Virus record (IMG/VR): IMGVR_UViG_3300029986_000041
Location: 1 to 37,024 of that record
Direction: 5' to 3' (one strand)
DNA: 37,024 nucleotides
Origin: a virus
Within the stretch, counting starts at the first letter, position 1. Each line of letters starts with the position of its first letter. Positions 3,740 to 37,024 of the stretch are shown in pieces. The translations under genes and the position numbers were made by a program. The notes beneath the pieces are model-generated. The model was not told the DNA's origin. It saw nothing but the letters and a program-made list of their open reading frames with translations, and searched no databases.

Positions 3740-3852
3740 CGAAAGATGATATCATAAGAAGGCTCCAAAAATTACCAATAACTGAATGGTTATTGATGAA
3801 AATAATAAATGAGCTGGTAGAAATGGGAGTTTTAAAATTGGAGGACGCATGA
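3736..3852 (+). CDS. Small charged protein in the putative lysis cluster
   Basis: A 38-residue frame, coupled at both ends by ATGA overlaps (start inside the previous stop, stop inside the next start). It is amphipathic (MTKDDIIRRLQKLPITEWLL...), with no signal peptide and no membrane segment. It has the look of a helix-turn-helix-like miniature or an antiholin-type regulator, but no family is recognised. Support comes from its exact overlaps and codon-like composition. Confidence 0.55.
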   Translation: MTKDDIIRRLQKLPITEWLLMKIINELVEMGVLKLEDA

Positions 3853-4067
3853 GTTTTTTACAAAAGATAGACGGAAGCAAGACATATATTTTGGCAATAA
3901 TCACAGGTGTTTTCACGCTGATTCATTTTATGGTTACAGGAGACTACTCTCTTGCATCATTTATTCAGCTATCACAAGACGCTACGGTTCTAGCAATGGT
4001 GGCTGCTTTGCGTCACGGGATTGCAAAGGCGGGGAATCAGGGAGTTATCAATCAAGGAGGGAAATAA
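3849..4067 (+). CDS. Putative holin
   Basis: 72 residues. KTYILAIITGVFTLIHFMVTGDY (about 11-33) gives one strong transmembrane segment, and FIQLSQDATVLAMVAALRHGIAK gives a second, weaker amphipathic or membrane segment. The C-terminus is short and polar. The layout matches small phage holins, which make pores that release endolysin at lysis time. It overlaps the preceding gene by ATGA, and the neighbours are also small membrane or helical proteins. The endolysin is not adjacent; the best candidate is at 18017-18379. Confidence 0.55.
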   Translation: MSFLQKIDGSKTYILAIITGVFTLIHFMVTGDYSLASFIQLSQDATVLAMVAALRHGIAKAGNQGVINQGGK

Positions 4068-12584: not shown

Positions 12585-12711
12585 CCCCAACGGCTGTGTC
12601 TACGATGAAGATGGCTATATGTACCAAAACGGAGAAGGTGAAGAATATGCGGCTAATCCATTTGGAGACCCTTACGATTTATACGGAGAGGGTGGAGAGG
12701 AAGAAGAATGA
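12577..12711 (+). CDS. Small acidic Gly/Tyr-rich protein
   Basis: 44 residues, strongly acidic, with repeated Tyr/Gly/Asp/Glu (VYDEDGYMYQNGEGEEY) and a poly-Glu end. It overlaps the previous stop at its start (ATGATTGA) and the next start at its end (ATGA), so it sits exactly between two real genes. The DNA of its last codons (GAGGTGGAGAGGAAG region) supplies the purine-rich ribosome site for the next gene. Function unknown. Confidence 0.55.
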   Translation: MIDPNGCVYDEDGYMYQNGEGEEYAANPFGDPYDLYGEGGEEEE

Positions 12712-13070
12712 AATTGGGTGAAAGACTTGATGTTGTTACTCTCGCGATTAAAGGGCATTGTTCCGTAGTTGCCGGGACAAGGCTTGTTGATGAATTAGTA
12801 AAAGTGCTTAAAATGAACAAAGCGCATGATCGTATTACCTATGATTATCCCGTTGGTGGGAGCGGTGGCACGGGGTACACGATGATTCAGCCAATTACAG
12901 AGAGCTTTATTGCGTTTGATGCGTGGCCTGACTTTGGCGGAGCGTATTTAATAATTTGTTCTTGTAAAACAGTATGCTTAAATAAAGTGACTAAAAAAAT
13001 ACGGGCTTTAGGATTTCAAGTTAAACAAATCAAAGCACATGAATTGAGGTTGAGAAATGGATTTCAGTAA
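12708..13070 (+). CDS. S-adenosylmethionine decarboxylase (SpeD/SpeH)-like protein
   Basis: 120 residues. The segment 63-87 lines up without gaps with the processing site of prokaryotic AdoMet decarboxylases: I-T-E-S-F-I-A-F-D-A-W-P-D-F-G-G against the family's ESH.-.IHTWPE-YG, ending in C-S-C. Ser66 corresponds to the serine that becomes the pyruvoyl cofactor, and Cys86 to the catalytic cysteine. The His needed for processing and catalysis in the canonical enzymes is Asp71 here, and the His after the Ser is Phe67. The fold is thus recognisable, but canonical AdoMet decarboxylation is doubtful. A changed amino-acid decarboxylase or an unprocessed binding protein are alternatives. It overlaps the ATP-grasp gene by 14 bases, so the two products probably work together. 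Confidence 0.75.
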   Translation: MKLGERLDVVTLAIKGHCSVVAGTRLVDELVKVLKMNKAHDRITYDYPVGGSGGTGYTMIQPITESFIAFDAWPDFGGAYLIICSCKTVCLNKVTKKIRALGFQVKQIKAHELRLRNGFQ

Positions 13071-17872: not shown

Positions 17873-18020
17873 TGTAGACGGTAACAATCTAACAGCGGAA
17901 GATCGCGGTTACGATGAGTACTGGTGTATGTTAGGAAAGCACCGGGTTTACGAAGATGCCTACAATCACAAATATCAATGCTGTTATAAGTGCTTCTATA
18001 ACGAAACGGAGGCTATATGA
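17835..18020 (+). CDS. Small Cys/Tyr-rich protein, unknown
   Basis: 61 residues behind AAGGAGG (17822-17828). The C-terminal half contains 'DEYWCMLGKHRVYEDAYNHKYQCCYKCFY', with C, H, CC and C that could bind zinc. It overlaps RHH at the start and the next gene by ATGA at the end. No family recognised. Confidence 0.6.
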   Translation: MTLLQKLTKTLNNVDGNNLTAEDRGYDEYWCMLGKHRVYEDAYNHKYQCCYKCFYNETEAI

Positions 18021-18379
18021 AGGATATAGCCGAAATCGTGGCTTTGGCTTGCTCTCTAATTCTTGCGACAATAGTGGTGTTCCTGACGCTTCTAATTTTT
18101 AGCACAAAATCCCATGCTTACACACTTGACCAATGGGCAGACGCGATAAGGATAACCGAAGGAAATACAAACTACGGTATTTTGAGCGTAAAGACCCATA
18201 ATCCGCGCCAAATCTGCAAGAACACAGTACGGAACACTTTTAAGCGTTTCGTGGCAAGGGGAGGCAACCCAAGCGATTTAAAGGGCTTTATAACCTTTCT
18301 TGGCAACCGTTATTGCCCCCCAAGTGTAGACCCAATAGGAAACCGCAACTGGATACAAAACATGGAGGAGCTACTATGA
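18017..18379 (+). CDS. Exported lysozyme-like protein, candidate (SAR) endolysin
   Basis: 120 residues. Residues 7-28 form a membrane segment (IVALACSLILATIVVFLTLLIF) followed by SHA-Y, so it is either a signal peptide or a signal-anchor. The remaining domain reads 'LDQWADAIRITEGN..YGI' (37-55), then 'NTVRNTFKRFVARGG' and 'FITFLGNRYCPPSVDPIGNRNW' (91-112). I have seen this pattern in many phage proteins of unnamed function. Glu48 before 'YGI' resembles the catalytic Glu of small muramidases, and C67/C100 could pair in the periplasm. Lytic activity is an inference. No other endolysin is visible. Confidence 0.55.
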   Translation: MKDIAEIVALACSLILATIVVFLTLLIFSTKSHAYTLDQWADAIRITEGNTNYGILSVKTHNPRQICKNTVRNTFKRFVARGGNPSDLKGFITFLGNRYCPPSVDPIGNRNWIQNMEELL

Positions 18380-23388: not shown

Positions 23389-23526
23389 ATGAAAATTATC
23401 AAGTGGTTATTAATTAAGGATTACTTTCCAAGATGGGCAACAATTATTATTATGATCCCGATGATTACACATTTACTATTTGGAGTTTGGACTCTATCAG
23501 ATTTAATTAAATTATTTTGGAAATAA
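23389..23526 (+). CDS. Small membrane protein
   Basis: 45 residues, with a basic N-terminus (KIIKWLLIKDYFPRW) followed by a strong transmembrane segment (ATIIIMIPMITHLLFGVW) and a short aromatic tail. It is flanked by the two copies of a 15-base direct repeat, so gene and leader may have moved as one cassette. No family recognised. It opens the sugar cassette. Confidence 0.55.
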   Translation: MKIIKWLLIKDYFPRWATIIIMIPMITHLLFGVWTLSDLIKLFWK

Positions 23527-23539
23527 CGTGGATAAAAGG
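23525..23539 (+). repeat. 15-base direct repeat, copy 2
   Basis: Second copy, overlapping the end of the membrane-protein gene and leading into GGAGCTAGGATG of the FAD enzyme. Confidence 0.8.
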
Positions 23540-23546
23540 AGCTAGG

Positions 23547-24686
23547 ATGAACTTGATATTAGGAGCAGGTATGGCAGGGCTTGGGGCAGGTATAAAAACT
23601 GAATATCCTATATATGAGCAATCAGATAAGGCTGGCGGGATCTGCCGTGATTACGTTAAAGACGGATTCACCTTTTCAAATGGTGGGGGACACTATCTGT
23701 TTGGCAAAGGCCCCGGACTTGATTATATTAAATCTTTAGTGCCAGTAAACGAGATTGAGCGCAAGGCAGGGGTTTATTACAATACGACTTTCCCGTATCC
23801 TTTTCAGACAACAGCAGAAAAAGACAATCACATTAGCACGTATCTACATGGTGGAAATGCAACAATAAAAGATTGGCTATTTGATAAGTTTGGAAAAGAT
23901 CAATGCAATCTATTTTTTAATCCCTTTAATGAGAAGTATACTGCTGGTTTATATGATAGGATTATCCAAGTAGACGACTACAAAAGCCCCCCTGCGGGTG
24001 GTAAAGGCTTCTGTCCTACCTTTTGTGATCCCGTAAACGGATTAAGTGATTTAGTGGATAAGATGGCGAGTAAGTGCGATATAAAATATGGTTATCAAGC
24101 AAAAAAAATATACGTTGAAAAAAAAAGAGTTTATTTTGAAGGGAATAATTTTGGACAAGACAAAGAATACGACAAGTTAATATCAACAATCCCCCTAAAC
24201 AAGTTAATGGAAATGTGCGGCCAGAAAGTAAATCTTCCTTACACTTCCGTATTAGTCATAAACATAGGGGCAGAAGTAGGCGCTTGCACACCCAAAGAGC
24301 ATTGGATGTATATACCTTTTTCTAAAACACCTTTTTATAGAGTGGGCTTTTATTCAAATATTCATCCGAATAAAGCGCCAAATGGAACGGTCGGGTTATC
24401 TGTTGAAATGGCGTTTCTACCAGATCAGAAAATAGACATACCTAAAATCACAAGAGACGTTATTCAAGAATTGCAAGAATGGCGTTGGATTGGAGAAGAA
24501 GTTATTACAAAAGATCCCACGGTTGTGCCAATGGCTTATACTTGGGTTTACGATAGGGAAACAGTACCCAAGGCGTTAGCATGGCTTAAAGAAAGAGATA
24601 TAATCTCAATTGGCAGGTACGGTAAACATCGTTTTCAAGGCATGGTAGAGAGCGTGGGGGACGGGTTAAATGTCAATCTTGACTAG
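23547..24686 (+). CDS. UDP-galactopyranose mutase-like FAD enzyme
   Basis: 379 residues. ATG 23547 sits behind GGAG; an in-frame start at 23517 would begin inside the previous gene. FAD site GAGMAGLGAG (6-15) with Glu24, then 'GGICRDYVKDGFTFSNGGGHYLF' across 30-52. 'FPYPFQT' and 'FNPFNEKY' match the FAD oxidoreductase/mutase family common in polysaccharide clusters, whose best-known member converts UDP-galactopyranose to the furanose. Sequence near 'GRYGKHRFQGM' fits the sugar/FAD end. The mutase call is moderate; a broader protoporphyrinogen-oxidase-like oxidoreductase is possible. It overlaps the next GT2 gene by 17 bases. Confidence 0.7.
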   Translation: MNLILGAGMAGLGAGIKTEYPIYEQSDKAGGICRDYVKDGFTFSNGGGHYLFGKGPGLDYIKSLVPVNEIERKAGVYYNTTFPYPFQTTAEKDNHISTYLHGGNATIKDWLFDKFGKDQCNLFFNPFNEKYTAGLYDRIIQVDDYKSPPAGGKGFCPTFCDPVNGLSDLVDKMASKCDIKYGYQAKKIYVEKKRVYFEGNNFGQDKEYDKLISTIPLNKLMEMCGQKVNLPYTSVLVINIGAEVGACTPKEHWMYIPFSKTPFYRVGFYSNIHPNKAPNGTVGLSVEMAFLPDQKIDIPKITRDVIQELQEWRWIGEEVITKDPTVVPMAYTWVYDRETVPKALAWLKERDIISIGRYGKHRFQGMVESVGDGLNVNLD

Positions 24687-25359
24687 CGTTATCGTAGCAA
24701 ATCACGGAAGGGACACTTCTAAGCTGGTATCTTCTTTGCCGGCAGGTGTGGAATATCTCGAAATCAATCAAGGATTAGAGCGATCAGCCCAAAGGAATAT
24801 TGGTATTGATAACGCCCGCGGCAAGTATTTACTTATTCTTGATAGCGACCAAAACATTTCACCTGGATTGATTAGAGAGTGCGAAACTTTAATGTGGGCA
24901 GGGTTTTCGTGCGTTTATATCCCTGAAATCATAGTAGCCAAGTCTTTCTTTGGGAAGATTAGGAAATTTGAACGGGAATTTTACACCGGCACAGCAATAG
25001 ATGTTCCGAGATTTGTTGATAAGAGATACTGCCCTAAATTTAATTTAGAATTATCGGGGCCCGAAGACGCGGATTGGGGCAATAGAATTAGAGGATGTCG
25101 GGCAATAAGCACTTCGCCCCTCTATCACCACGACGACGTGAGCTTTATTGAGTACATGAGAAAGAAGATTTATTACACGAAGTCAATGCGTAAGTACGCA
25201 GAATTATGGCCTGATGACAAATGTTTGAACCTTAAGTACAGATGTTGGGATGTTTTCGTGGAAGATGGAAAATGGCGCAAGTTGATCGCCCATCCTATTT
25301 TGACTTTAGGAATAATATTTTTATTGATAGTCAGGGGAATAATTTATGCGAAAAGATAA
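24670..25359 (+). CDS. GT2 glycosyltransferase with C-terminal membrane anchor
   Basis: 229 residues. GT-A fold: 'SVIVANHGRDTSKLVSSLP', 'ERSAQRNIGIDNARGKYLLILDSDQNI' (split by helix) with the DxD-type DSD at 57-59, and acceptor-side 'LSGPEDADWGNRI' (about 136-148). A hydrophobic tail 'HPILTLGIIFLLIVRGIIYA' likely anchors it to the inner membrane. It transfers a sugar to a lipid-linked or surface acceptor. The start overlaps the mutase-like gene. Confidence 0.75.
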   Translation: MSILTSVIVANHGRDTSKLVSSLPAGVEYLEINQGLERSAQRNIGIDNARGKYLLILDSDQNISPGLIRECETLMWAGFSCVYIPEIIVAKSFFGKIRKFEREFYTGTAIDVPRFVDKRYCPKFNLELSGPEDADWGNRIRGCRAISTSPLYHHDDVSFIEYMRKKIYYTKSMRKYAELWPDDKCLNLKYRCWDVFVEDGKWRKLIAHPILTLGIIFLLIVRGIIYAKR

Positions 25360-25507
25360 TCTTCAAAGACAATCCGTAGTTTTTAAATGTAAACAATGTG
25401 GTAAAATGATAGAACATTTCACACGCAAGCCAATGTTAATGACAAAAACCTATTGTGATGATTGCGTCTACCAAAGAAAGAGAAAATATTATGCCTCTGT
25501 CCGTTAG
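25346..25507 (+). CDS. Small zinc-finger protein within the sugar cassette
   Basis: 53 residues, 'FKCKQCGKMIEHF' and 'TYCDDCVYQRKRK' give two CxxC pairs about 25 residues apart, one zinc site, followed by a strongly basic end. It overlaps the GT2 genes on both sides. A nucleic-acid-binding role is likely; it does not fit the sugar pathway and may be an inserted accessory gene. Confidence 0.55.
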   Translation: MRKDNLQRQSVVFKCKQCGKMIEHFTRKPMLMTKTYCDDCVYQRKRKYYASVR

Positions 25508-26354
25508 TGTGTGTATCGCGTGCTACAAAAATGATCCGTTCTTAAATGAAGCAATCGCAAGTTGCACAATGCAAAGCTATCCAGTAACAGTTTGTGTTTA
25601 TCACGACAACGTAGGTGTCGGAACGGGAGAAGCTTTCAATCGGGCAATAGCAATGTCTAAAGACGACATAATTGTGCTTCTTTGTTCCGATGATGTTTTT
25701 ACTGACCCCAATGTAATCTCTGATATTGTGAGCGTCTTTGAAACAATACCAGAAATAGGTCACGTTTCTAGGTGGTATCATCAGTTTGTAGAAAACGACA
25801 GGCATCCAGTAAGGGCATGGCGCGGTGAAGATGTGATTGAGCTTGCCAACAACCCTTCCGGTATGGCTTTTAGGAGAGAGGCATTGTGTTGTGATGTGAA
25901 AAACAACTGGTTTGATCCACCCCGCAGATTAACAAACAGAATATTTGTTGAAGTTGCAGATTTAGTCAGAAGCGTTATAAAAGATGGGTGGGCATATTCA
26001 ATACTTCGGTACGACACAGTAGCCGTTAGGATTCACCAGAGCATTTCAAGAACGCCTGGGTACTATAAGAAAATGTTTACCACAAGCCCTGTATTGGAAT
26101 GGGCAAAGTTAGGTTGGAAATCAAAAGACTTCACAAGTTTAATTCAGATAAAAAACAATTTCACAACAAAGGCGGTGTTAGATGAAATCAGGAATTTTAT
26201 TTCTGTTGATATGGGGAATTTACTTCACCCTGCTTTTTGGTTTTTTAGCGTGGTGGCACTTATTACACCGAGATCAATCCTCTATAAAATTCCCGAAATC
26301 TACCGGGCGACTTGGGGCAGACTTACAACCAAAGAGGTAAAGCGTGAAAAATAA
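25491..26354 (+). CDS. GT2 glycosyltransferase
   Basis: 287 residues from ATG 25491 (upstream in-frame codons at 25455 lie in the previous gene). 'SVSVCIACYKNDPFLNEAI' opening, and 'DDIIVLLCSDDVFTDPNVI' with the DD metal motif. The middle contains 'NPSGMAFRREAL' and 'TNRIFVEVADLV'. The C-terminal end 'PAFWFFSVVALITP' is membrane-like. It shares these motifs with the next gene, so the two are paralogues. Start overlaps the zinc gene; end overlaps the next start. Confidence 0.75.
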   Translation: MPLSVSVCIACYKNDPFLNEAIASCTMQSYPVTVCVYHDNVGVGTGEAFNRAIAMSKDDIIVLLCSDDVFTDPNVISDIVSVFETIPEIGHVSRWYHQFVENDRHPVRAWRGEDVIELANNPSGMAFRREALCCDVKNNWFDPPRRLTNRIFVEVADLVRSVIKDGWAYSILRYDTVAVRIHQSISRTPGYYKKMFTTSPVLEWAKLGWKSKDFTSLIQIKNNFTTKAVLDEIRNFISVDMGNLLHPAFWFFSVVALITPRSILYKIPEIYRATWGRLTTKEVKREK

Positions 26355-27252
26355 AATCACCGTCGCTATTCCATCATACAATAACGAAAAGCACATAGGA
26401 GAAGCTATTGGAAGCGCAAGGATGCAAGAATATCCATTAAAAAATATTCTCATTATAGATGATTGCTCAACGGATAAAACGTTTAATATAGCAAAAGAAT
26501 TTATGAGTGATGAGAATATTGAAGTTTATAAGAATGAGAGCAATTTAGGAATAGGAAAAAATTTAGAAAAGTTAATGACAAAATGCGAAACAAAGTACAT
26601 AGTATATTTATGTGCAGACGATATTTTCACGCACCCGAAGGTCTTGACAGATATTGTACATATATTTGATTACTCGCCGGAGATTGGCGTAGTCGGAAGG
26701 TACGGATTTTATTTCATGGATGGACACAGAGGCGCAATAGGCGTTTGCAGAGATAAAAATATTCTTACTTCTTCGTGTTGCCCGTCTGGGGTAGCTTTCC
26801 GCACAAGACCAGACATCGCTAAATCCACAAACCGAATTTTCGTTGAAATGCCTACAATGGTTGCAAGTTTTCTGAAACAATACCGATGGACAATGATAGA
26901 ATGGGACACGGTAGCTTTTCGCTATGCGCCCGGAATAAATACCGGCACCAAGCCTTCGTATTACACAGAATCCCCAACACAGAATTGGATTGACCTCATG
27001 GGTCAGAATTACCAAGACTTCTCAATATTCATTACACTTAAAAACCGAGCACCTAGATTGTTGTTAAAGGAGATATGGCTACACATAGAAAACGACAAGA
27101 CGGTATTAAAGAACCCTATGTTCTGGCTGTATGGCCTAACGGCGTTCGTGTTACCCGCCTTCATTCTGAAAAGATTAACAAGATTCTACAGACACAGGCT
27201 GTCAAGAATGTCTGCAAAAATAATAGAAAGGCCAAGTGAACAAAAACATTGA
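26344..27252 (+). CDS. GT2 glycosyltransferase, paralogue of the preceding
   Basis: 302 residues, GTG start. 'ITVAIPSYNNEKHIGEAIGSAR', 'NILIIDDCSTDKTF' with the nucleotide-binding DDCSTD, 'YIVYLCADDIFTHPKVL' with the metal-binding ADD, 'CPSGVAFR', 'TNRIFVEMPTMV' and a C-terminal 'MFWLYGLTAFVLPAFI' membrane-like segment mirror the preceding enzyme. The pair likely arose by tandem duplication and then changed substrate or acceptor choice. It overlaps the previous gene by 11 bases. Confidence 0.78.
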   Translation: MKNKITVAIPSYNNEKHIGEAIGSARMQEYPLKNILIIDDCSTDKTFNIAKEFMSDENIEVYKNESNLGIGKNLEKLMTKCETKYIVYLCADDIFTHPKVLTDIVHIFDYSPEIGVVGRYGFYFMDGHRGAIGVCRDKNILTSSCCPSGVAFRTRPDIAKSTNRIFVEMPTMVASFLKQYRWTMIEWDTVAFRYAPGINTGTKPSYYTESPTQNWIDLMGQNYQDFSIFITLKNRAPRLLLKEIWLHIENDKTVLKNPMFWLYGLTAFVLPAFILKRLTRFYRHRLSRMSAKIIERPSEQKH

Positions 27253-27331
27253 AATAATAATGAGAGTTATCGCAAAACTTGTCAAAGAAGGAAAACCATT
27301 TGTGTTTATAATTGGGGGAGATAATGCCTAA
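27236..27331 (+). CDS. Possible 31-residue peptide between GT2 and RmlB-like genes
   Basis: GTG 27236 behind GAAAGG. The frame runs 'MNKNIEIIMRVIAKLVKEGK' and then 'PFVFIIGGDNA', overlapping genes on both sides. It carries the GGGGGAG ribosome site of the next gene. Moderately hydrophobic. It could be a coupling peptide or non-functional. Confidence 0.35.
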   Translation: MNKNIEIIMRVIAKLVKEGKPFVFIIGGDNA

Positions 27332-28334
27332 AACAATTTTAATTACGGGAGTTGGGGGATTCATTGGAAGTCATTGTTTAAGCCATGTGCTTGTAAACAC
27401 AGATTGGAACGTAGTAGGGATTGATAGTTGGAACCACAAAGGAATTTCAGAAAGAGTTAGCGAAAGCACCCATTACCAACGGAACAAGCATAGGGTAAAC
27501 GTATATACTCACGATTTAAGCGCCCCTATATCAAACGTCATGCAAGAAAAAATAGGGAAAGTGGATTATATCATCAATTTCGCAAGTCAGAGCCATGTTG
27601 ATCGTTCGCTAACAGATCCCGTTCCCTTCGTACAGAACAACGTCAACGTCATTTTAACAATGTTAGAGTACGTTCGCAAGTCACAGCCTGAAAAGTTTAT
27701 TCAGATAGGCACAGATGAAACCTACGGGCCTACTGATGGAATCCACGCACATAAAGAATGGGACTGTATCAGACCATCAAATCCTTACTCCGCAAGCAAG
27801 GCCGCACAAGAAGCTATTTGTATAAGTTATTGGCGCAGTTACAACGTACCTATCATTCTCACAAATATAATGAATAACTACGCAGAAACCCAAGACCCGG
27901 AGAAATTCGTACCGATGGTTATTAAGAAAGTAATTAACGAAGAAACGGTTTATATCCATTCAGATCCTACTTGTCAGTTCTCTGGATCAAGGTTTTGGTT
28001 ACATCCTCGTAATTTATCAGACGCTTTAATATTCTTACTTAAAGAAGTTCCTGTTGATTATTACCCAAAACATGACCGGCCCCAAAGATTTAATGTTGTT
28101 GGAGAGGTTCAGATCACAAATTTAGATATGGCTCTAAAGATAGCTGAAATAATTGGCAAGCCTCTTAAATATGAATTAGTAGACGCCCATACCAGCCGGG
28201 CAGGTCACGACCTACATTATGGGCTTGACGGCAGAAAGTTAAAATCTTACGGATACGAATTCCCTAAAGGATTTGAAGAATCTTTGCGCAAGACGGTTGA
28301 ATGGACGATTAATAACCCAAGATGGTTAAAATGA
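27324..28334 (+). CDS. dTDP-glucose 4,6-dehydratase-like SDR enzyme
   Basis: 336 residues. NAD-binding GVGGFIGSH (9-17), then 'IINFASQSHVDRSL', the dehydratase triad T130-D131-E132 in 'IQIGTDETYGPTDG', and Y155-xxx-K159 in 'NPYSASKAAQE'. The R/TDE-plus-YxxxK pattern is that of RmlB-type NDP-sugar 4,6-dehydratases, giving 4-keto-6-deoxy-sugars for rhamnose-like or amino sugars. A related GDP-mannose or UDP-sugar dehydratase is the alternative. GGGGGAG is the ribosome site. Confidence 0.8.
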   Translation: MPKTILITGVGGFIGSHCLSHVLVNTDWNVVGIDSWNHKGISERVSESTHYQRNKHRVNVYTHDLSAPISNVMQEKIGKVDYIINFASQSHVDRSLTDPVPFVQNNVNVILTMLEYVRKSQPEKFIQIGTDETYGPTDGIHAHKEWDCIRPSNPYSASKAAQEAICISYWRSYNVPIILTNIMNNYAETQDPEKFVPMVIKKVINEETVYIHSDPTCQFSGSRFWLHPRNLSDALIFLLKEVPVDYYPKHDRPQRFNVVGEVQITNLDMALKIAEIIGKPLKYELVDAHTSRAGHDLHYGLDGRKLKSYGYEFPKGFEESLRKTVEWTINNPRWLK

Positions 28335-29356
28335 GATATTTATTTCCTCTTAATCCCTACAATCAGCAAAGGCAACTGGAAAAGATGGTTTGGGTCTACC
28401 CTGCACATTTGGCTATGTACGCAACTTATTTAAAGAATCAAGGGCATGAAGTAATATGGAATCATAAAGGCCCAGCCAAAGCATCGGATAGAACAATTGA
28501 CAATGATTTTCAAATAGATGTTCCGTTTGAAGACTTGCCATTCCCAGACAGACTATTTACCGACGGTAAGAATAAAAGATGGCAAGATTACGGCAACTAC
28601 AAGTTTAAGCCAGCCACGCACATGATGGCATCAAACCTTTGCTGGTACGGCCGTTGTACTTTCTGCATCGATACCAAGAAACTCGAAGAAGGAGAACATA
28701 GAGGGTTAAGAACGGTAGATCACTGCATGGAGGAGATAGATGACCTTATTGCCAATGGATATAAAGAAGTCTTTGATGATTCAGGCACGTTCCCTCTTGG
28801 GAAGTGGTTGGAAGAATTCTGTGTCAAAATGCTTATTAATGGAAGGCGAAAGCACATTAAGATTGGCTGTAATATGCGAGTCCAAGACGCACCTTGGGGG
28901 ATCATGGGAGGTGCTGGTTTTAGATTTATCCTCTTTGGCATCGAGTCAGCAAATCAGCCAACTCTTGACAGAATTAAAAAATCAGCCCGCGCAGATGAAA
29001 CGGTTAGGATACTCAAAGAAGCATCAGAAGCAGGTTTAGAGCCACACGGGACGTTTATGACAGGGTATCCCTGGGAAACGGAGAAGGATGAAAAACGAAC
29101 AATCGAACTCTGCCACTACTTGCTCAAAAAGGGGTATCTTAAAACGGCTCAGGCATCGGTATATAGTCCGCCTCGTACAAGTCCTAGCCCTGATTCTGTT
29201 GGGCACCGTTATTTGCCCCGTTTTTATGATGTATATAAGTCTCCTGAGTTCATTATTCGCAAGGTAAGTGATATAAGATGCTGGCAGGATTTTACTTATA
29301 ACTTACGTGGCGCTCGTTTAGTTGTGGAGGAAAAATGTCGCAAAATGTTCTCATAA
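28331..29356 (+). CDS. Radical SAM enzyme
   Basis: 341 residues, ATG 28331 overlapping the previous stop as ATGA. Cys104, Cys109 and Cys112 in 'SNLCWYGRCTFC' form a CX4CX2C cluster motif, a variant of the usual CX3CX2C. 'FRFILFGIESANQPTLDRI' and 'GLEPHGTFMTGYPWET' are standard later motifs of B12-type/elongator-like radical SAM proteins. The N-terminus has only a trace of a cobalamin-binding domain ('YPAHLAMYATYLKNQGHEV'). In a sugar cluster it might methylate or rearrange a sugar or lipid; the actual reaction is unknown. Confidence 0.75.
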   Translation: MRYLFPLNPYNQQRQLEKMVWVYPAHLAMYATYLKNQGHEVIWNHKGPAKASDRTIDNDFQIDVPFEDLPFPDRLFTDGKNKRWQDYGNYKFKPATHMMASNLCWYGRCTFCIDTKKLEEGEHRGLRTVDHCMEEIDDLIANGYKEVFDDSGTFPLGKWLEEFCVKMLINGRRKHIKIGCNMRVQDAPWGIMGGAGFRFILFGIESANQPTLDRIKKSARADETVRILKEASEAGLEPHGTFMTGYPWETEKDEKRTIELCHYLLKKGYLKTAQASVYSPPRTSPSPDSVGHRYLPRFYDVYKSPEFIIRKVSDIRCWQDFTYNLRGARLVVEEKCRKMFS

Positions 29357-30717
29357 TTTTATTGGTCAACTTTCTGTTTTACGCCAAGACCCTACGTATG
29401 GGTTACGTGTCTGATGATATAGTTTCAGCGCAACGATCGCCACATAAGAATCCATTTCTACATTGGTTTTGGGTTCTTGAGGGACATTCAAAGAGCGTAT
29501 CATATAAAAAAATGGAACAAGGTGACTCTAATTTCTTAATGCCGGGGGTCGATCATGCGATTACTACGTTGCTTCATAGCTTGGTTTGCGTTGGAATTTA
29601 CTTGGGCTTGGGAGATAATCAAGTTAGTTTTATTGCTGCTTTGCTGTTTTCTTTCAATCCTGTTAATAATCAAGGTAGCGTCTGGATAAGTGGACGCGGG
29701 TATGTATTAAGTGCTTTAGGGATGGTTTGGGCATTAGCTTTACCTATGGAGATGGGCGGGCTGATGTTGCTGGGAGCAACCTATAGCAATGCGGGATTCT
29801 CCTTGCCGATTATCCTATTAGGCTCAAGCCATCCTTATTTATTTATATTTGCGCCTTTATGCTGGTGGTTTCACATGAAACGTTTTCAAAAGAACGTGAA
29901 ACAAAAGATGGACATGGAGTTATTTACGGAAGATAAGCACATTCACCCAAAGAAGCTGATCCTTGCGGTAAAAACGTTTGGCATTTATCTAAGTCATGCG
30001 ATTATTCCATTTAAAACCACGTTTTATCATTCTTATCTTGAAAGCATTGCCGGTTGCAACGCACAGAAAGCGTATACACTTTGTAAGTTTTTCTGGTTTG
30101 GCGCAGGATCTTTGGTGCTGATGCTTTGGTATATTTGTACGCACAGATGGGACATGGTTTGTTTCGGGATATTGTGGTGGTGTGTTGGGATTGCGCCATT
30201 TTGTAATTTGATGAGGATGCAACAGGAGTTAGGGGAAAGATACGTATATGCGGCTAACGTTGGCGCTATGCTCATCCTGGCGCACTTTATTTCACCATAT
30301 CCCGTTGTATGTGCCTTTTTTATCGGAATGTACGCAATGAAGACATGGGATTTTATTTCCGGGTACAAGGATGATTTTTGGTTTATAGAAGTCTGCCGAA
30401 TCAATCAGCCTAAGTCTTGGTTTGCTTGGCACATCAGCGCAGTGAAAAGATGGGACGTTCAATCATACCGGGAGGCTGTTATATTTTGGGTGATGGCTAA
30501 AAACCTAAGTCCAAAAGAATTTAAGTTACTATTTAACCTTGCGGCCGCGCTCGTAGTTATGGGAAATCAATGTGTTGAACCGTTACGCTCAAATATGATC
30601 CGTGAAGGATTAGGATTTCTCGCAGAAGCAGAGAAGAACATTCCCAAAGGACAGGAGAAAATGGCGGGAGAGTTTATTACAAATTTCAGAAATAACAAAG
30701 TTGCAATTTTAATTTAG
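29335..30717 (+). CDS. GT-C membrane glycosyltransferase (TMTC-like)
   Basis: 460 residues. ATG 29335 sits behind GGAGG, overlapping the radical SAM gene by 22 bases. There are about eight hydrophobic segments. 'MGYVSDDIV' places the catalytic-type Asp pair D27-D28 in the first outside loop; 'FNPVNNQGSVWISGRGYVLSAL' and 'ELGERYVYAANVGAMLILAHF' are the typical later motifs of the GT-C proteins with C-terminal TPR (TMTC/PMT style). The tail after about 350 is TPR-like helix. GT-C enzymes use a polyprenyl-phosphate sugar as donor on the outer face of the inner membrane. The adjacent DPM1-like gene supplies such a donor. Very unusual in a small phage. Confidence 0.65.
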   Translation: MSQNVLIILLVNFLFYAKTLRMGYVSDDIVSAQRSPHKNPFLHWFWVLEGHSKSVSYKKMEQGDSNFLMPGVDHAITTLLHSLVCVGIYLGLGDNQVSFIAALLFSFNPVNNQGSVWISGRGYVLSALGMVWALALPMEMGGLMLLGATYSNAGFSLPIILLGSSHPYLFIFAPLCWWFHMKRFQKNVKQKMDMELFTEDKHIHPKKLILAVKTFGIYLSHAIIPFKTTFYHSYLESIAGCNAQKAYTLCKFFWFGAGSLVLMLWYICTHRWDMVCFGILWWCVGIAPFCNLMRMQQELGERYVYAANVGAMLILAHFISPYPVVCAFFIGMYAMKTWDFISGYKDDFWFIEVCRINQPKSWFAWHISAVKRWDVQSYREAVIFWVMAKNLSPKEFKLLFNLAAALVVMGNQCVEPLRSNMIREGLGFLAEAEKNIPKGQEKMAGEFITNFRNNKVAILI

Positions 30718-30725
30718 GAGAAATT

Positions 30726-31313
30726 ATGAGTGTTAGTCTTATTATGCCCTGTCACAATGAGGGTAAACGTCAAGAGTTCATGGAAGATATTGAAGAAATC
30801 CTTCCAATGGTAAATCAGATTATAGGTTGTAATGATAAGCACAGCATGGGTAAAGGTTGGGCCGTGCGTGAAGCTTTAAGATGCGCAACAGGAGATATTG
30901 TGATAATCCTCGACGGCGATGGGGATATAAACCCTAAGATGGTTAGGCGGTTACTTCCTTACCTTGAAGACTATGATGTTGTTTGTGGAGTTCGTCCTAT
31001 AAGCGGGTTATGGTCAAGAAGGTGTTTAACTTATTGGTCAAGAATGTACATAGCGCTATTGTTTGGTGTAAAGGTTTCGTCTCAAACAGGATTGAAAATA
31101 TTTAAACGATATGCACTCGAGGAATGGTATAATAATGGATTCTTAGCCGATCTGGAAATACTTTGTATGGCTAAAAAGAAAGGCATGAGAATTATTGAAG
31201 TTCCAATAGAAGGCGAAACAAATAAACCAATGAAATTTTCAAGCATTTGGAGAACTTTCAAAGAATCAATAACTCTTTTCTTAGAAATGAAGGATTATAA
31301 GCATGATAAATAA
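30726..31313 (+). CDS. Polyprenyl-phosphate sugar synthase (DPM1-like GT2)
   Basis: 195 residues. 'VSLIMPCHNEGKR', 'GKGWAVREALRCATGDIVIILDGDGDINP' (split) with DGDGD at 63-67, 'SSQTGLKIFKR' and 'DLEILCMAKKKGMRIIEVPI'. This is the dolichol/polyprenyl-phosphate mannose or glucose synthase pattern, which transfers a sugar from NDP-sugar to the lipid phosphate on the inside of the inner membrane. It lacks the C-terminal membrane helices seen in some relatives (about 195 residues total). Placed 8 bases after the GT-C gene, it very likely makes its donor. Confidence 0.8.
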   Translation: MSVSLIMPCHNEGKRQEFMEDIEEILPMVNQIIGCNDKHSMGKGWAVREALRCATGDIVIILDGDGDINPKMVRRLLPYLEDYDVVCGVRPISGLWSRRCLTYWSRMYIALLFGVKVSSQTGLKIFKRYALEEWYNNGFLADLEILCMAKKKGMRIIEVPIEGETNKPMKFSSIWRTFKESITLFLEMKDYKHDK

Positions 31314-36624: not shown

Positions 36625-36893
36625 TGGGAGCAAATACTCAAAACTCTTTAAAGGACCCTATCTGCCCGACCTATGCGGCAGGGAGCATTTCTATTATGAG
36701 TGGTACGGGTACAGGAGATGTATTAAATGACAGCGCCCTTGCAGGTCAGCCTAACGGTTATAACAACACGATCACAGGATTTACCGTTGGCTCATTTAAT
36801 AACGGTTGGGAGAACGGATGTTGGAGTCAGAACGTAGTCCCAACATATTCAAGTAGTCTAATCCGATTCGGGTTAGAAGGAAGGCAATCATAA
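36624..36893 (+). CDS. Tandem head-region paralogue 2
   Basis: 89 residues, same architecture as the preceding gene: 'NSLKDPICPTYAAGSISI', 'GTGDVLNDSALAG', 'GSFNNGWENGCWSQN', 'PTYSSSLIRFGLEGRQS'. The loop between about 45 and 57 is the most different part and is shorter. The gene is cut by the window's opening and continues as 1-123. Translation is coupled by TAATG on both sides. Function unknown. Confidence 0.6.
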   Translation: MGANTQNSLKDPICPTYAAGSISIMSGTGTGDVLNDSALAGQPNGYNNTITGFTVGSFNNGWENGCWSQNVVPTYSSSLIRFGLEGRQS

Positions 36894-36940
36894 TGGAACG
36901 TACAGGTAAAGCAGAACGTCGTAAAAACAAAAGGAGATAA
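36893..36940 (+). CDS. Very small basic peptide upstream of scaffold (second copy)
   Basis: Same 15-residue frame as at 123-170 but with Glu instead of Ala at residue 2, because of the single base difference in the terminal repeat. See the entry at 123. Confidence 0.45.
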   Translation: MERTGKAERRKNKRR

Positions 36941-36942
36941 AC

Positions 36943-37024
36943 ATGGCATTACTAGAGGATAACGCTGCCCAAACAGCAGGTGCAATTAGTGGTGGCCCAG
37001 ATGCCGCAGGTGCGGTAGCAGGTG
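36943..37024 (+). CDS. 5' end of the scaffolding protein gene (partial)
   Basis: First 27 codons of the scaffold gene, running off the end of the window. The complete copy is at 173-1057. Confidence 0.9.
   Translation, partial: MALLEDNAAQTAGAISGGPDAAGAVAG

Follow-up and report, generated by a model that had tools for sequence, protein, structure and literature searches.

Which protein cuts the host cell wall for a phage in whose genome the common endolysin models find nothing? The question is raised by a virus record of 37,024 bases (the window, by which we mean the whole stretch of DNA analysed). The first-pass annotation had stated that this genome has no standard endolysin and had proposed a small protein with an N-terminal membrane segment for the role. 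The first statement holds within the searches made: no lysis enzyme came out of a Pfam scan (E≤0.01) that covered 43 window ORFs and left aside some 15 others, such as those for terminase, portal, capsid and sugar genes, nor was any of six families (PF13539, PF01510, PF01464, PF03330, PF00959 and PF00182) found when the window was searched in six frames.

A small gene in a packed operon

The proposed sequence, 18017–18379, is a real gene. It belongs to a closely packed operon on the + strand, because a GGAGG lies just upstream and both its start and its stop share an ATGA with the neighbouring gene. Genes of DNA metabolism (ERF-like, HNH) flank it in the window. The gene and its parts are as follows.

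18008–18012, + strand: GGAGG, likely ribosome-binding site, read from the sequence, ending 4 bases before the ATG
18017–18379, + strand: gene for the compact lysozyme-like protein, an ORF from ATG to TGA of 120 amino acids
18035–18100, + strand: hydrophobic N-terminal segment, about residues 7–28, putative export signal or anchor (AF2 helix 2–28; hydropathy 3.13 over 15 residues)
18110–18118, + strand: SHA, residues 32–34, possible signal-peptidase site before Tyr35, from the sequence
18119–18376, + strand: predicted catalytic domain, residues 35–120 (AF2 model, VIA match, bridge alignment)

Three other regions of the window drew attention. Positions 1 to about 254 recur at 36771–37024 with few differences (30-base probes from 1, 41, 81, 161 and 201 recur, that from 121 does not), which suggests terminal redundancy. 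A run of genes at 23517–31313, similar in sister genomes, reads by eye as sugar-nucleotide and glycosyltransferase genes (mutase-like, epimerase-like, radical-SAM-like). The ORF at 12708–13070 probably encodes an S-adenosylmethionine decarboxylase: PF02675 is matched (1.4e-5) by a single ORF among the 43 scanned, which we take to be this one because sister G010 has a clear case (L202:2868–3221, 3.8e-23).

An unnamed phage family and its conserved residues

The protein had been supposed to belong to a compact, unnamed family common in phages, and this was borne out by relatives in 129 of 144 candidate viral stretches of one scan. That scan used alignment A4, built from a longer subgroup with an 'ENGG..G.EFGI' motif, and its best 80 stretches were kept. 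Scans with the three-row alignment A1 and with A2 gave relatives in 74/161 and 62/71 viral stretches, the three sets overlapping. Used singly against viral contigs, the window protein returned 10 stretches and no relatives; by tblastn it reached four phage records from Manatee Spring, all labelled 'hypothetical protein'. Relatives are also encoded in 5 of 15 stretches from bacterial and archaeal genomes (two Verrucomicrobia, one Phycisphaerae, one Planctomycetota and one Aenigmatarchaeota MAG contig), and these could reflect prophages or mistaken binning. A family-profile script run over all collected loci gave 227 ORFs and 126 unique domains.

Established families do not take in these proteins. 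Against PHROGs, Pfam and NCBIfam the window protein has chance-level matches at most; those to a transposase HTH, to MG319/MPN454 and to other library entries (E 0.04–0.5) were taken as chance. Sixty-four members gave no convincing match to Pfam or PHROGs and, at E≤0.1, no wall-enzyme family in Pfam, neither PF01832 (GH73) nor PF01464 (GH23/SLT). A literature search, conducted by means other than sequence, turned up no paper that we recognised as describing the family.

The motifs that had caught the eye in the single sequence are present, namely a hydrophobic segment followed by STKSHA-Y, TEGN..YGI with Glu48, and GNRYCPPS..DPIGN.NW. Their apparent conservation exceeds chance, with E48, G54, P101 and W112 invariant in 67 non-redundant relatives, the window included. 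In the larger set, 125 unique domains could be aligned, one of the 126 being too short and dropped; L059, which has a broken frame, was also left out of the alignments. E48 is retained in 123/125 of these domains, N115 in 124/125, and G54, P101 and W112 in every one, and position 99 is Tyr in 120 and Trp in 5. Median dN/dS was 0.16 over 45 pairs from a 10-sequence clade to which the window protein does not belong. The residues discussed below map to the window as follows.

18158–18160, + strand: Glu48 codon, candidate general acid, the last residue of helix 37–48
18173–18181, + strand: Tyr53-Gly54-Ile55; position 53 is Tyr in 83 and Phe in 42
18215–18217, + strand: Cys67, a Cys in 95/125, jointly with Cys100 in 87/125
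18311–18319, + strand: Tyr99-Cys100-Pro101, matching Tyr-Ala-Pro of the GH73 domain 8yxk
18350–18352, + strand: Trp112, a Trp in 8yxk too

The near-constancy of Glu48 bears on whether the protein is an enzyme at all. A lysozyme-like fold without catalysis, serving as a binding protein or an inhibitor, would accord with relative L140 (ORF from 8227 of a Planctomycetota MAG contig), which has Lys at the expected position of the catalytic Glu. Against this stand the 123 domains that keep the Glu, and the second exception, L287, is a truncated row that ends at its contig end. We regard the non-catalytic reading as the least probable of those considered here.

N termini were classed over the 126 unique members with a simple hydropathy-rule script. 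A strongly hydrophobic N terminus is found in 89, of which 80 carry an x-x-Ala type motif, 7 lack one and 2 have a lipobox; the motif after the hydrophobic segment resembles that of a putative cleaved signal peptide. The 37 others include several barely under the threshold, some with long N-terminal parts and two that are cut or broken, and the few that are leaderless (L009, L029, L038, L042, L047 and probably L024) include proteins of about 90 residues in all. The family is thus likely to be mostly exported, as far as its N-terminal sequences tell. The window segment ranks among the most hydrophobic of the family and is a candidate for either an export signal or an anchor.

Predicted fold and a sequence bridge to GH73

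The AF2 model of the window protein (pLDDT 91.5, pTM 0.71) consists of helices at residues 2–28, 37–48, 63–80, 88–99 and 110–119, the second of which is closed by E48. Its top VIA match is the lytic transglycosylase MltF (Z 5.1 over 84 residues), followed by matches at 4.0 and 3.1. Taken alone, a Z of 5.1 is weak and lies within the range given by unrelated folds. Foldseek found nothing at E≤0.001 for this model in the PDB or BFVD.

A model of relative L058, a member of the longer subgroup taken in its mature form, was also examined (pLDDT 90.6, pTM 0.85). Foldseek again found nothing in the PDB at E≤0.001; its best match was ostrich g-type lysozyme (E 0.8, TM 0.61), and MltF and the phi6 lysin ranked high, interspersed with globins. 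VIA on these Foldseek candidates gave 57 chains at Z≥5 and 42 at Z≥8. Among the 50 matches listed, rows 1–43 are by title wall- or chitin-cutting enzymes (Z 10.4 to 4.7), counting rows 34 and 39, virion complexes that we take to contain such an enzyme, and unrelated chains follow only after row 43, at Z 4.3 and 3.8. They include MltF at Z 10.4, the GH73 endolysin domain 8yxk at 9.3 (106 residues) and TM0633 at 7.7. With the GH23-type enzymes MltF, LtgA and Slt among the rows, and the GH73 domain beside them, the relative's model has the lysozyme-type helical fold; for the window model itself the corresponding value is the MltF match at Z 5.1. Sequence links the window protein to L058, the two falling into one alignment with the same invariant columns, and in both models the Glu stands at a helix end. 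Structure prediction, which had been suggested as a check, hence favours a lysozyme-type fold, through a weak MltF match for the window protein and the 43 wall or chitin enzymes for L058, Foldseek by itself being non-significant.

Sequence provides a second and indirect route to the same enzymes. By tblastn, a subgroup member reached a stretch of a 1,212-residue protein of Bradyrhizobium phage BDU-MI-1 (1e-5). This protein sits between tail genes and matches PhageMin_Tail (8.6e-15), which marks it as tape-measure-like; the family-like domain within it, at L293:5932–6321, is annotated only as hypothetical. By hhalign the family aligns with the stretch at probability 95 and E 4e-8 for A4 and at 83 and 9e-6 for A2, the A2 alignment leaving the Glu uncovered. 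The stretch in turn matches 8yxk, the GH73 domain of the Clostridioides difficile endolysin Ecd09610 (E 2.3e-5). Against PF01832 it gives 0.013, below the cut-off, and the 8yxk fragment gives 4e-10. In a 16-row bridge alignment that includes 8yxk and also a wastewater 'Listeria phage' contig of unverified identity, Glu, Gly, Tyr-x-Pro, Asn and Trp are invariant and in register, the register of the Glu being specific to the multiple alignment (it is one residue apart by pairwise BLASTP and gapped by hhalign). When the family is set directly against the 8yxk fragment by hhalign, the similarity is weak and confined to the C-terminal part, and no lysozyme was retrieved from the PDB by sequence searches that started from the window protein or the family profiles. 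A match of alignment A7 to 8yxk (1.9e-16) was excluded from the evidence because A7 holds the 8yxk sequence itself and the match is circular.

The fold matches, together with Glu, Gly, Tyr-x-Pro, Asn and Trp in register with 8yxk, make E48 a well-supported candidate for the catalytic acid. The early emphasis on this residue was well placed, Glu48 being the best catalytic candidate by conservation, predicted fold and bridge alignment together.

Comparison with known enzymes shows where the family stands. It resembles the GH73 domain 8yxk in the fold of L058 and in the shared register; it differs in that direct similarity is weak, the longer segment between the Glu and the Gly motif is lacking, PF01832 is not matched and the hosts are others. 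The 8yxk domain lyses cells (PMC9405191). MltF of Pseudomonas aeruginosa, a GH23-type lytic transglycosylase, is the best VIA match of both models, but is a far larger two-domain cell enzyme with no detectable sequence similarity, and the members have no PF01464 match. In a paper on the Enc34 endolysin (PMC8943055), the Enc34/M4Lys-type endolysins (PHA02564) are described as divergent small lysozyme-fold phage enzymes that sequence comparison misses, are likened to GH73 and GH23, and serve to propose a Glu, a Tyr and an aromatic residue as the GH73/GH23 signature. By analogy, Tyr99 and Trp112 would fit that signature. The family is like these enzymes in being small, divergent and, by prediction, of lysozyme type, with a putative Glu/Tyr/aromatic signature; they have a C-terminal membrane part and a permuted helix order, whereas the window protein has its hydrophobic segment at the N terminus and its Glu helix ahead of the other domain helices.

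The occurrence of the domain in a tape-measure-like protein raises the possibility of a virion-borne or injected wall enzyme that aids DNA entry. Weak matches of 4 of the 64 members to phrog_1259, a tail lysozyme (best E 0.0046), point the same way, as do relatives L032 and L055, which are encoded close to head genes and are extended by long stretches at the N terminus. The window protein, however, is separate and small, carries an export segment and is encoded away from the tail genes, and we consider this reading very unlikely for it.

Lysis or another use of the probable wall enzyme

That the 120-residue protein is a lysozyme-fold wall enzyme we regard as very probable from its sequence relationships and predicted fold; whether it is the endolysin of this phage we judge to be evenly balanced. 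Its N-terminal hydrophobic segment would carry the small protein across the inner membrane, where the 86-residue outer domain would act as a minimal glycosidase of lysozyme type (GH73/GH23-like). The predicted first helix of this domain ends in Glu48, which would be the acid that cleaves a beta-1,4 bond in the glycan strand of peptidoglycan; Tyr99 and Trp112 would line the groove, and Cys67 and Cys100 may form a disulfide. The first-pass annotation had called the enzyme muramidase-like; as to bond specificity, the nearest solved sequence relative makes it a candidate GH73 glucosaminidase and the nearest fold a candidate lytic transglycosylase. The most likely use would be as a phage endolysin whose timing may be set by a separate holin-like protein, for which the window offers one candidate.

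3849–4067, + strand: small hydrophobic protein encoded away from the gene, guessed from hydropathy to be a possible holin partner (weak PHROG of unknown function)

A relative of this hydrophobic protein, 69% identical, is present in sister G003. The proposal as a whole, an exported minimal lysozyme-type glycosidase likely used as an endolysin, is one that we moderately favour. In having an N-terminal hydrophobic export segment ahead of a compact, here predicted, muralytic domain, the protein resembles SAR or Sec-exported endolysins; unlike them, its gene is not beside a lysis cassette.

The gene's neighbours would also suit a different use. Across relatives, adjacent same-strand genes with a membrane-like segment number 5 of 156 by crude gene calls, and the adjacent-gene survey found no lysis cassette of holin or spanin genes. 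Among the 25 of 71 PHROG families listed for adjacent genes, those named are HNH, exonuclease, endonuclease VII, methyltransferase and replication initiation, and none has a lysis label; 26 of 152 adjacent genes, mostly short, had been dropped before family assignment. A putative periplasmic wall-cutting enzyme made early from the replication operon could have a job other than lysis, trimming or altering the wall, for example to block further phage entry or to ease virus production. The position between DNA-metabolism genes in the window, the neighbours in relatives, mostly nuclease and recombination or replication genes where named, the scarcity of adjoining membrane proteins and the close sisters that manage without the gene all speak for such a role. 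Yet this genome is without a detected standard endolysin, and T7 lysozyme is a lysis enzyme whose gene is placed among DNA-metabolism genes, a precedent for the arrangement seen here. We consider a non-lysis role possible but doubtful.

The distribution of other endolysins bears on the preferred endolysin reading. In six-frame searches of 46 family-bearing records (42 selected at ≥37 kb, three sisters and the window; more exist), PF00959, PF13539, PF01510, PF03330 and PF00182 were each found in 0/46 and PF01464 in one, G069, below the cut-off. Sixteen terminase kin without the family were searched for four of these families: PF00959 was found in 1/16, PF13539 in 0/16, PF01510 in 1/16 and PF00182 in 1 of the 9 searched for it, in three different records. 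The contrast of 3/16 with 0/46 for PF00959, PF13539, PF01510 and PF00182 gives a one-sided Fisher value of 0.015 (0.063 without PF00182), and is post hoc, on non-independent records and with shorter controls.

Of 52 portal relatives 16 were dropped, and in the remaining 36 records the family occurs three times (3 of 9 among the larger ones). In G003 and G005, the closest two of the sisters examined, the gene is absent and its two flanking genes are kept. None of the searched enzymes was found in either of them or in the gene-negative sisters G010 and G036; failure to find an endolysin is therefore not strong evidence here. Sister G018, also without the family gene, encodes a secreted RlpA-like protein (L206:17740–18108, PF03330 2.9e-19). 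It alone would fit a general swap of the family gene for another enzyme, and given the other four sisters no such swap is claimed.

A broader and more speculative view, which we think unlikely, is that this unnamed miniature GH73/GH23-like lysozyme family is reused by environmental phages as free exported proteins, as leaderless proteins and as a tape-measure module, and in many of them is expressed from the replication operon to serve a purpose that differs from terminal lysis or precedes it. If active, the protein would fill a gap in many environmental phages, those for which the common endolysin models gave no wall-cutting enzyme, and would provide annotation pipelines with a new model. Its very short lysozyme-type domain would join the small set of divergent phage lysozymes, and it raises the question of why a wall enzyme should be encoded among DNA-replication genes.
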